Shown here piece after piece: positions 11,674-29,379 of a stretch of 64,000 nucleotides of DNA. The position numbers were made by a program, and so were the translations under genes. A model generated the notes under the pieces. It saw only the letters and a program-made list of their open reading frames with translations, did not search any database and was not told the origin of the DNA. Origin of the DNA: Pectobacterium wasabiae CFBP 3304 (GTDB taxonomy: Bacteria; Pseudomonadota; Gammaproteobacteria; Enterobacterales; Enterobacteriaceae); NCBI RefSeq assembly GCF_001742185.1, contig NZ_CP015750.1, positions 496,001 through 560,000 of the forward strand, given 5' to 3'. Numbering within the stretch: the stretch's first letter is position 1; every line of letters starts with the position of its first letter.

Positions 11674-11702
11674 TTGGGATTACAGCCTTATTACGCAACG
11701 GC

Positions 11703-11720
11703 TGTCGGCATAGACCGACA
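11703..11720. other. Hairpin in the gltX 5' region
   Basis: A perfect 6-bp inverted repeat TGTCGG-N6-CCGACA, 30 bp upstream of the gltX start codon. It may fold in the gltX leader; function unknown. Confidence 0.35.
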
Positions 11721-11919
11721 TAAGCTCAGAGAACAAAAGTGGGCAACATTCTATCACTCTGCTTCGATTCCTCAACGCCGTAACATGTCGCACGCGCTTT
11801 TATTGTGGTTGACGGAACAAGATAGCTGACTGAATTGCACAAGGATGCGGCGCCAATGACGATAAATACGACGCCTTGCCTAATTTTGCAACGAACAATC
11901 ATTTTAGTTTTAAAAAGCG

Positions 11920-11947
11920 TTGACTCATATTCAAGGATCCCTATAAT
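11920..11947 (+). promoter_or_regulatory. Sigma-70 promoter of the tRNA-Val/Lys operon
   Basis: TTGACT (11920-11925), 16 bp spacer, then a perfect TATAAT (11942-11947) followed by GCGACTCC, a GC-rich discriminator typical of stringently controlled stable-RNA promoters. The first tRNA begins 18 bp after the -10 box. Confidence 0.9.
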
Positions 11948-11964
11948 GCGACTCCACACAGCGG

Positions 11965-12040
11965 GGGTGATTAGCTCAGCTGGGAGAGCACCTCCCTTAC
12001 AAGGAGGGGGTCGGCGGTTCGATCCCGTCATCACCCACCA
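11965..12040 (+). tRNA. valU: tRNA-Val (UAC), first copy
   Basis: A 76-nt cloverleaf with TAC anticodon and encoded CCA, first gene of the operon downstream of a strong promoter. It is identical to the next two copies. Symbol assigned by synteny with E. coli valU-valX-valY-lysV beside gltX. Confidence 0.97.
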
Positions 12041-12098
12041 CTCTTTACTGATTTTAAGTAAGAGTAGCTCGCTGTGTAGAGTAAGAAGATTTGAGATT

Positions 12099-12174
12099 GG
12101 GTGATTAGCTCAGCTGGGAGAGCACCTCCCTTACAAGGAGGGGGTCGGCGGTTCGATCCCGTCATCACCCACCA
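12099..12174 (+). tRNA. valX: tRNA-Val (UAC), second copy
   Basis: Identical 76-nt tRNA-Val with TAC anticodon and CCA, 58 bp after the first copy. This is the natural substrate of TrmN, which is also encoded in this window. Confidence 0.97.
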
Positions 12175-12240
12175 ATCTCTACCAGCTGGTCTTCTTATTA
12201 GAAGTTGAAGTAAGTATCGAAGTAAACGTAGTTCAGAAGT

Positions 12241-12316
12241 GGGTGATTAGCTCAGCTGGGAGAGCACCTCCCTTACAAGGAGGGGGTCGGCGGTTCGATC
12301 CCGTCATCACCCACCA
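12241..12316 (+). tRNA. valY: tRNA-Val (UAC), third copy
   Basis: Third identical 76-nt tRNA-Val, 66 bp after the second and only 7 bp before tRNA-Lys. Confidence 0.97.
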
Positions 12317-12323
12317 CTTCTGC

Positions 12324-12399
12324 GGGTCGTTAGCTCAGTCGGTAGAGCAGTTGACTTTTAATCAATTGGTCGCAGGTTCGAATCCTGCACGACCCACCA
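12324..12399 (+). tRNA. lysV: tRNA-Lys (UUU)
   Basis: A 76-nt cloverleaf with TTT anticodon and encoded CCA. It is intact. Its 3' 18 bases recur twice downstream in the tandem repeat. Confidence 0.97.
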
Positions 12400-12555
12400 C
12401 TTCCGCAAAGTGAATCCTTCCTGAAGTAAATCCATCCAATGTTATATATTGCACGTGTCGTGTGGGTGAGAACCTGCGCTCAGGTTCGAGCCGAGCGAAG
12501 CGAGACAGCAACGCGCTAGCGTTGACCCCGAAGGGGCGAGGCCAAAGGCCGAGTC
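12382..12555 (+). repeat. Tandem repeat unit 1 (174 bp), tRNA-Lys 3' end plus palindromes
   Basis: Begins inside lysV at ATCCTGCACGACCCACCA and runs through about 85 bp of spacer, then a chain of short palindromes: GAACCTG-CGCT-CAGGTTC, AACGC-GCTA-GCGTT, CCCC-GAA-GGGG and GGCC-AAA-GGCC. The next unit then restarts with the tRNA tail. The palindrome chain is framed by CAGGTTCGA and ATCCTGC, i.e. the T-arm of tRNA-Lys, as if inserted there. Confidence 0.85.
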
Positions 12556-12714
12556 ATCCTGCACGACCCACCACTTCCGCAAAGTGAACCCTTCCTGAAG
12601 TAAATCCATCCAATGTTATATATTGCACGTGTCGTGTAGGTGAGAACCTGCGCTCAGGTTCGAGCCGAGCGAAGCGAGACAGCAACGCGCTAGCGTTGAC
12701 CCGAAGGGCGAGTC
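12556..12714 (+). repeat. Tandem repeat unit 2 (159 bp)
   Basis: Near-identical copy of the preceding unit but 15 bp shorter: it lacks the GGCC-AAA-GGCC module and its linker (13 bp), and the CCCC/GGGG stem is reduced by one pair (2 bp). Both sides of the stem shrank together. A few other substitutions separate the units. Confidence 0.85.
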
Positions 12715-12732
12715 ATCCTGCACGACCCACCA
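12715..12732 (+). repeat. Third copy of the tRNA-Lys 3' end
   Basis: ATCCTGCACGACCCACCA, identical to the last 18 bases of lysV, closes the tandem array immediately before the operon terminator. Units 1 and 2 do not contain complete tRNAs: acceptor 5' strand, D-arm and anticodon arm are all absent. Confidence 0.85.
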
Positions 12733-12735
12733 ATG

Positions 12736-12765
12736 TAAAAAGGCGCCCTAAAGGCGCCTTTTTGC
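12736..12765. terminator. Terminator of the tRNA operon
   Basis: AAAAAGGCGCC-CTAAA-GGCGCCTTTTT: an A-run, a strong GC stem and a T-run. It ends the tRNA operon and can also end the convergent SDR gene, whose stop codon abuts it. Confidence 0.9.
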
Positions 12766-13586
12766 TATCTGTCATTTACGTCAAGCTGAAGATTCTTTCG
12801 GATACCAGAATCCAGCATACTCGGCGCAAAGCGACGCAATAAGGTCAGACGAGCCGCCGCCGCACCAGCCGTGTAGCGGATTTTTGGGTGCTTCGCTTGG
12901 GCCGCTTTCAGCACAACCTTAGCTACGACAATTGGGTTGTCTGCATTTTCCATCGCCTGCTTCAACACTTTGCCTAATTCGCGCCGTACAAACGCATATT
13001 CATCCAACATCGCATCCGGCTGCACATTATTCGCTTCAAACTGCGTCTTCGTATATGCAGGTTCAATGACAGAAACTCGGATACCACGAGGGCGCAATTC
13101 GTGATCCAGCGCTTCCGAGTAGCCTTCTACCGCATGCTTGCTGGCAACATAAAGCGCGGTATAAGGCATCGGCACGACGCCCAGAATAGAACTGATATTG
13201 ATGATACGACCAGCCCTTTGCTGACGCATGTGAGGTACGACAGCCTGAATCATCCGAACAACCCCCAAAAAATTGGTATCAAGGATTGCCTGAGCCTGCT
13301 CAAGCGAGCTTTCCTCCGCTCCTGCGGGACTCAACCCAAAACCAGCATTGTTCACTAACAGATCGATACGCCCCTCCCGCCGAACGAGTTCACCCACAGC
13401 CTCTTTAACTGACTTATCGCTGGTCACATCCAAAGACAGCATTTCAAACCGCTTATTCCCTAATGATGCACCTCGTCTGCTGGTTCCGTATACGGTATAA
13501 CCCGCAAGTGCCAGTTGCTCCGCGATAGCCTCCCCAATCCCCGATGATGCGCCAGTAACCAGCGCGACAACTTTATCTGACGCCAT
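12765..13586 (-). CDS. Short-chain dehydrogenase/reductase
   Basis: Classical SDR family oxidoreductase of 273 residues with the NAD(P)-binding motif TGASSGIG at the N-terminus, the NNAG motif and the catalytic Y-x3-K in YVASKHAVEG. Substrate unknown. The open frame extends to 13739, but the upstream part is AT-rich and not SDR-like, so I take the ATG of MASDKV. It lies 149 bp downstream of an old-yellow-enzyme gene on the same strand, and a 20-bp sequence 38 bp upstream of its start recurs in the promoter region of that neighbour. Confidence 0.88.
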   Translation of the reverse strand: MASDKVVALVTGASSGIGEAIAEQLALAGYTVYGTSRRGASLGNKRFEMLSLDVTSDKSVKEAVGELVRREGRIDLLVNNAGFGLSPAGAEESSLEQAQAILDTNFLGVVRMIQAVVPHMRQQRAGRIINISSILGVVPMPYTALYVASKHAVEGYSEALDHELRPRGIRVSVIEPAYTKTQFEANNVQPDAMLDEYAFVRRELGKVLKQAMENADNPIVVAKVVLKAAQAKHPKIRYTAGAAAARLTLLRRFAPSMLDSGIRKNLQLDVNDR

Positions 13587-21500: not shown

Positions 21501-21576
21501 ACTTAAATAATTCGATTTGCAGGACAAGACATTATCGTTTTGAACCGCGTATATGCCGCTTGAAGTAGGACGGGTA
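21501..21576. repeat. Deletion remnant (76 bp) of the TACCC/GGGTA palindromic element
   Basis: Keeps both ends of the family (CTTAAATAATTCGATTTGCA on the left, CCGCTTGAAGTAGGACGGGTA on the right) but only about 35 bp of interior, including ATTATCGTTTTGAAC. It lies 64 bp upstream of sbp, within the presumed promoter region. Confidence 0.7.

Positions 21577-29185: not shown

Positions 29186-29379
<194 letters not shown>

Follow-up and report, generated by a model that had tools for sequence, protein, structure and literature searches.

tRNA-linked repeats (TLRs, also called RtT RNA) were first described in 1978 and catalogued by Rudd in 1999, and PMC8144298 places 22 of them at ten loci of Escherichia coli K-12, where the last 18-19 bp of each repeat exactly the 3' end of the adjacent upstream gene. 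The same source assigns TLRs no known function and notes that a role once claimed for the tyrT TLR was later retracted; those in rRNA operons are processed and bind Hfq and CsrA, and the 19 in tRNA operons score below 0.01 as CsrA binders (PMC8144298). Excerpts from other sources report covariation support for a helix or pair around a tandem GA in RtT RNA (PMC7657543, PMC8250186), similarity of rtT to repeated elements assigned to BIMEs (PMC2965389), and a table of Salmonella indels in which rtT RNA copy number differs by 175 bp (PMC2658671). REP/BIME palindromes, according to the title of a further paper, are GTAG- or CGTC-tagged (PMC3733652, which also mentions Rickettsia palindromic elements).

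Two repeat units behind lysV

The window, the 64,000-nt stretch of the Pectobacterium wasabiae CFBP 3304 genome that was analysed, contains an operon with the order tRNA-Val (three copies), tRNA-Lys, unit 1, unit 2 and terminator. Its features, in window positions, are:

11920-11947: promoter-like TTGACT-N16-TATAAT, upstream of the tRNA-Val genes
11965-12040, 12099-12174 and 12241-12316, + strand: three tRNA-Val (TAC) genes (ARAGORN)
12324-12399, + strand: tRNA-Lys gene (lysV), whose last 18 nt (12382-12399) are the repeated tail
12400-12573, + strand: TLR/RtT unit 1, 174 bp (Rfam RF00391 match at 12446-12573, 100.3 bits)
12457-12478, + strand: inverted flank of unit 1, copied from the tRNA-Lys 3' end
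12490-12555, + strand: core of unit 1, a 66-nt palindrome chain bounded by TTCGA and ATCC from the split T-arm
12556-12573, + strand: tail copy closing unit 1
12574-12732, + strand: TLR/RtT unit 2, 159 bp (RF00391 match at 12620-12732, 96.8 bits)
From 12631, + strand: inverted flank of unit 2
12664-12714, + strand: core of unit 2, 51 nt, one palindrome fewer than in unit 1
12715-12732, + strand: tail of unit 2
12735-12765, + strand: predicted intrinsic terminator hairpin directly after the last tail (-21.5 kcal/mol, z -6.5)

Both units exceeded the RF00391 gathering score (45 bits) with the model matched over its full length, and no second Rfam family overlapped them at gathering thresholds. 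The 18-nt lysV tail, ATCCTGCACGACCCACCA, occurs three times (12382-12399, 12556-12573 and 12715-12732) at spacings of 174 and 159, in agreement with the preliminary description of this DNA. TLRs lie in tRNA or rRNA operons at one to five per locus and share their 3' end with the upstream gene; here two units stand behind Val-Val-Val-Lys, and both end in a sequence identical to that of lysV at 18/18 positions. Sequence comparison thus assigns the array to the TLR (RtT RNA) family, as a fresh pair of members behind lysV. At the same site, an E. coli strain has gltX, three tRNA-Val genes, tRNA-Lys, an annotated 'RtT sRNA' and xapR. Four rather than three tRNA-Val genes precede lysV in one genome (G015, L072).

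The two units share a duplicated stretch of 147 nt with 2 differences (99%), far above chance: a T to C substitution in the linker (12415/12589) and a G to A substitution (12464/12638) that turns a G-U pair of the closing helix into A-U. The palindrome chains are preceded by CAGGTTCGA (12481-12489 and 12655-12663) and followed by ATCCTGC, two sequences that are contiguous in the intact lysV T-arm (12373-12399); the coordinates bear out the framing by T-arm-adjacent sequences given in the preliminary description. The core of unit 1 consists of four short GA-linked palindromes by eye (the minimum-energy fold shows three). Its length exceeds that of the unit 2 core by 15 nt: a GGCC-AAA-GGCC hairpin and the attached GA linker account for 13 nt, and a single C-G pair in a CCCC/GGGG stem for the rest, which is the difference of a hairpin module and one balanced pair that had been described. 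Each unit thus repeats the tRNA 3' end with a chain of GA-linked palindromes breaking up the T-loop, and has as its 5' flank an inverted copy of the same 3' end that can pair with the tail in RNA.

The preliminary description placed both units inside the operon, and the predicted terminator hairpin does follow unit 2 only: none was seen by eye between lysV and unit 2. An automatic terminator scan of 11700-12900 returned nothing, its rule being blind to hairpins whose A-run pairs with the T-run. Across the wider collection of units described below, a terminator-like stem with a T-run occurred within the first 75 nt, between tRNA and unit, in 40/176 units (Pro 14/17, Ser 13/22, Lys 13/80, Tyr 0/45, Arg 0/9, Glu 0/3); therefore co-transcription, or any role that needs it in full, is not general. 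The window units folded only modestly better than shuffled sequences (z -1.9 each); the closing helix was present in the folds of both, and the minimum-energy fold of unit 2 was without the small hairpins. Open frames across the units reached 56 aa. A basic 41-aa open frame with a GTG start (12462-12587) crosses unit 1 and recalls the protamine-like tpr frame of E. coli tyrT.

Tails, inverted flanks and unit number across genomes

We searched two sets of genomes with RF00391, under strict filters by which weak matches were lost. Set 1 comprised 59 genomes (the P. wasabiae genome included), of which 34 had a match at E 0.001 or better and 33 a match above the cut-off; 122 of the 125 matches listed were examined and 3 left out. 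Set 2 comprised 295 genomes drawn from the order (again including P. wasabiae), with a match at 1e-5 in 49 and above the cut-off in 43 (21/99 genera); it yielded 115 matches from genomes outside set 1 (plus G049), 101 of them in loci examined. Tails were compared with the nearest upstream tRNA over 18 positions. At most 2 mismatches were found in 99/122 matches of set 1 (3-5 in 10, more in 11, no tRNA in the stretch read in 2) and in 77/101 of set 2 (3-5 in 4, more in 10, no tRNA in 10). The tail of the nearest upstream tRNA was therefore copied in 176/223 examined matches overall, the exceptions being 21 tails with more than 5 mismatches, 14 with 3-5 and 12 without a tRNA in the stretch read. 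Host tRNAs were those for six amino acids (Lys, Tyr, Ser, Pro, Arg, Glu).

One case is accounted for among the ten set-2 matches without a tRNA: three units (L220) have an integrase gene (Pfam) and a tRNA-Ser 3' remnant in front of them. In G269 (L238, 1607-2920), TLR units follow a tRNA-Ser 3' remnant that is itself directly preceded by an integrase gene (PF00589, PF12167); an island inside the tRNA seems to have separated it from its TLRs. Behind the tRNA-Arg copies of the P. wasabiae genome (L007, 2812-3180) stand two TLR units, of which one ends in an intact Arg tail and the other has decayed.

The 5' part of a TLR is, from comparison with the host tRNA, an inverted copy of that tRNA's own 3' end. 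Examples are tRNA-Tyr CGAAGGTTCGAATCCTTCCCC against CGAAGGATCTCATCCTTCCCC in a flank from G026, and tRNA-Lys CGCAGGTTCGAATCCTGCACGAC against CGCAGGTTCTCAT-CTACACGAC in one lysV unit of G016. We scored flanks by local alignment against the 25-nt end of the own tRNA and against tRNAs for other amino acids, taking means over host-by-genus groups; the set-2 loci were fetched only after the idea of an inverted flank had arisen. The own tRNA scored above the mean foreign tRNA in 17/18 groups (set 1) and 26/27 groups (set 2), and above the best foreign tRNA in 13/18 and 23/27, respectively. It fell below the best foreign tRNA in Arg g1, Lys g4, Pro g42 and Pro g64 and equalled it in Arg g10, Lys g2, Lys g40, Pro g10 and Pro g44. 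In G041, with a single Tyr unit, the tRNA has a different T-stem (GCTGG/CCAGC) and the flank carries the same one. The inverted copy is exact, reading GATTCGAA(C/T)CTGC, in 5 Lys units from three genera and also at E. coli lysV. In unit 1 of the window, pairing with the tail is possible for 12457-12466.

The closing helix could be anchored by motif in 132/176 units (42 groups). In register, 226/336 group cells paired, compared with 130-196 when the strands were slid by 1-3; at positions one to six, 203/252 paired, with AT, GC, CG and TA pairs tracking the host. At the spot between the two host-matched helices, a pattern search covering 145 units found GA in 105, TC in 28, AA in 7, TT in 4 and GG in 1. 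TC would be expected of a plain inverted copy, and the excess of GA is what a process that kept the tandem-GA motif would leave, in agreement with the published covariation. Where tRNA and unit tail differ, the flank followed the host only at 20 positions, the unit only at 5, both at 8 and neither at 6 (11 units being unanchored); these differences involve mostly decayed tails, and we read them as slow decay rather than selection.

Competition between flank and tRNA was also modelled by folding, for the window and for 64 tRNA-unit pairs out of 100 that qualified (no more than 3 for any host and genus), in a model free of tertiary structure and modification. In 53/64 the flank preferred the tail of the tRNA to that of the unit, and the acceptor stem fell below 0.5 in 63/64. 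With shuffled flanks as a control the cloverleaf also fell below 0.5 in 61/64, and we therefore draw no inference from this folding.

Occupied lysV sites are set apart from empty ones by complete units. In E. coli, sites are empty (L129, L131), carry one unit of 156 bp (L038) or carry two (L130); a terminator lies between tRNA and unit there, and the repeated segment includes it. Within Pectobacterium, lysV could be read in 23/25 genomes, with two tails (within 3 mismatches) in five, one in eight and none in ten. Among the ten tail-less sites the terminator directly follows lysV in G017 only, where the first 47 nt behind lysV are identical to the sequence after the unit 2 tail of the window; the other nine retain a unit-type linker. 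This variation in unit number is explained by recombination, with identical tails or linkers as the partners. Plasmid NZ_CP098226.1 (L133) carries a gltX-Val-Val-Val-Lys-xapR piece with broken genes, and the chromosome of that strain has the locus as well (L038); by its looks the plasmid copy is a displaced piece of chromosome, perhaps an assembly artefact, and it was left out of the comparison.

Palindrome cores and ERIC elements

The core lies between GGTTCGA and ATCC in most units, with GGATA replacing GGTTCGA in short units of Arg and Lys tRNAs. Comparison in both directions was possible for 126 of the 142 distinct cores: 92 were closest to a core at the same tRNA in another genus and 34 to one at another tRNA in the same genus. 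Cores of short Arg and Lys units reached 95% identity over 44 nt, their ends differing. Cores are thus mainly inherited with the locus, and some seem to have moved to another tRNA, with ends matching the new host. At the other tRNA-Lys locus of the genus, some 30 nt of the tRNA-Lys body survive immediately upstream of the core in 11 units, and a similar remnant is present in the P. wasabiae genome (L006, 3022-3092).

ERIC elements with internal insertions have been published. The window core had seven matches in its own genome. Three are itself, unit 2 and a decayed unit from the other Lys locus (L006); the remaining four are outside tRNA loci (E 2.7e-8 to 2.2e-6) and cover palindromes 2-4. 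All four lie between ERIC ends, with 1-5 mismatches of 20 on the left and 1-3 of 24 on the right. The first palindrome of the window unit (GCCGAGCGAAG) is not of the CAAA type, and the ERIC likeness is limited to the remaining palindromes. ERIC ends are absent around the window core itself, which is flanked by tRNA 3'-end sequence.

With up to 2 mismatches allowed, 120 ERIC left ends occur in the genome, against 0 for the reversed-pattern control. Thirty exact left ends were read; by the patterns used, 13 elements were insert-free (including the shortened L260) and 17 carried cassettes, each about 70 nt long, at one to three positions: site 1 was occupied in 12 (cut short in L266), site 3 in 8 and site 2 in 5-6, depending on the pattern. 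At site 2, plain GGGA^ATCCC becomes GA/CAAATTCG...CATTTC/ATCCC, to be set beside a CAA-type TLR core, GGTTCGA/CAAAACCG...CGAATT/ATCC. ERIC cassettes thus have a 5' junction like that of TLR cores (GA/CAAA) and at one site share the 3' neighbour ATCC. The preliminary description had proposed insertion of a palindromic element into a T-arm, and this part of it is supported by like cassettes, with the GA/CAAA junction, in ERICs that also occur cassette-free, and by the 11 units that keep tRNA-Lys body before the core. A GGTTCGA/CAA start was counted in 41/176 units, a bare count given that the pattern itself required it, and two units of G012 have an extra CAAA-type chain nested at TGAGA^ACC.

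We compared 82 of the 142 cores (at most 3 per group) with 16 ERIC inserts from the P. wasabiae genome. Shuffles and reverse complements were used in place of a covariance model of the inserts, which contained 7 base pairs only. Fifty-nine of the 82 cores resembled ERIC inserts better than every one of 60 dinucleotide shuffles (23 did not), and 80 scored above their own reverse complement, the other 2 scoring equal. The ERIC likeness therefore extends to sequence and polarity, beyond mere palindromicity; several distant groups show it weakly (Ser g18, Ser g69, Tyr g10). With an ERIC insert as the query, matches came from 6/12 other genera. Among 12 loci read from these matches, L282 had both ERIC ends, L271 and L280 had both with 3-5 mismatches each, L273 and L278 had an exact left end and the others had no clear pair of ends; in L272 (G027) a palindrome chain stands free.

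Elsewhere in the window, an ERIC at 29190-29375 carries a palindrome cassette at site 2, and further ERIC left ends lie, among the matches listed, near 21503, 43886 and 52772. The P. wasabiae genome also has a dispersed intergenic palindrome repeat (12 matches including the query; L119, L120, L121, L124, L125 and L128 among the loci), whose hairpin module, like AACGTTGCGTAAGCAACGGCCCGAAGGGTGA, comes near the cores of short Lys and Arg TLRs.

Origin, role and relation to known elements

Two regularities make the origin and function of TLRs, which have been without consensus for decades, testable. First, the core is of the same kind as ERIC inserts, an indication of a mobile cassette. Second, most units track the host tRNA at both ends, by a direct copy at one and an inverted copy at the other, an indication of either an RNA fold or an observable copying process. 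The antisense flank also raises the question of whether a TLR disturbs or guards the maturation of its own tRNA.

Our preferred account, to which we give a probability of about 0.7 as a whole, is that the lysV TLRs derive from a palindrome cassette placed in an inverted repeat of a tRNA 3' end and persist as near-neutral passengers. A mobile cassette without a transposase, of a kind that also enters ERICs, would have entered such an inverted repeat just behind TTCGA. GGTTCGA and ATCC, common to the T-loops of the tRNAs seen here, offer microhomology that could then allow cores to pass to other tRNA genes, and recombination together with template switching may hold both unit ends matched to the host. 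The window units are probably co-transcribed with the Val-Lys precursor, from which tRNA 3'-end trimming enzymes might excise them as short structured RNAs, by analogy with the TLRs of E. coli rRNA operons. Most likely the units are near-neutral passengers with a constrained fold rather than a dedicated regulator. A wider proposal would treat TLR cores, ERIC inserts and some free-standing palindromes as one mobile cassette family entering after GA (GA^ATCC, in T-loops and at ERIC site 2), which gives a TLR when it lands in a tRNA 3' end, where the antisense flank may compete with tRNA folding or processing and the tail copy may act as a sink; we hold this only tentatively and lean against it.

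A functional small RNA encoded by the units and tied to tRNA transcription, serving as a sponge for CsrA, Hfq or another RNA as proposed for RrA/RrB/RrF, appears unlikely. The processing and the Hfq and CsrA binding recorded in excerpts on rRNA-operon TLRs (PMC8144298) would suit it, as would closing-helix pairs that follow the host; against it stand the very low CsrA scores of the 19 tRNA-operon TLRs, the lack of a known function and the retracted tyrT claim in the same source, and the absence of units from some E. coli strains and some species of the genus. The preliminary description read the array as the remnant of a second tRNA-Lys, hit by a palindromic element and then decayed or multiplied by slippage. 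This is rather less probable still, even though the units that keep tRNA-Lys body at the other Lys locus of the genus, and the similar remnant in the P. wasabiae genome, speak for it. The lysV-type units are fronted by an inverted tRNA 3' end instead of a tRNA body, and in 13/23 lysV loci of the genus (P. wasabiae included) one or two intact-tail units stand behind a single lysV, which by the criterion set in the preliminary description does not favour a second full tRNA-Lys at this place. Since units form a recurrent family at many tRNA genes, the majority of them with intact, host-matched tails (176/223), decay or slippage is doubtful as a general account. The decoy role that the preliminary description gives to the extra CCA-ended tails would be a speculative one.

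Exact duplication of the tail and the existence of empty sites resemble the att sites of a site-specific integrative element, and the PF00589 integrase gene at the tRNA-Ser 3' remnant before the TLR array in L238 could be taken the same way. That array is better explained by an island entering a tRNA that already bore it, and in E. coli the repeated segment takes in the terminator. We rejected an att or integration origin because the sequence between successive tails of the window (156 and 141 bp) has no frame above 56 aa and could not encode an integrase; such an origin is very improbable.

In the excerpts of TLR literature that we searched, no mention was found of a tRNA-following inverted flank or of an ERIC-like core, nor did excerpts of the other literature searched mention a link between ERICs and TLRs, for which prior print is possible. 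The window units can be compared with several described elements. Rickettsia palindromic elements are small, palindromic and inserted within genes; they belong to other hosts. ERICs with insertions share with TLRs the GA-linked palindrome cassettes and the GA/CAAA 5' junction, whereas the window unit has no ERIC ends, a core in a tRNA 3' end and a different first palindrome. The RrA/RrB/RrF sRNAs of E. coli rRNA operons are themselves TLRs, with tails that copy the 5S 3' end and RNA that is processed; unlike the window units they lie behind 5S, between two terminators, and bind CsrA, whereas tRNA-operon TLRs are predicted non-binders. Closest are the described TLR/RtT repeats, which likewise stand behind a tRNA in one to five units, with an 18-19 nt tail from that tRNA and a palindromic body; from these the window array differs in its place at lysV and in its shortened second core.
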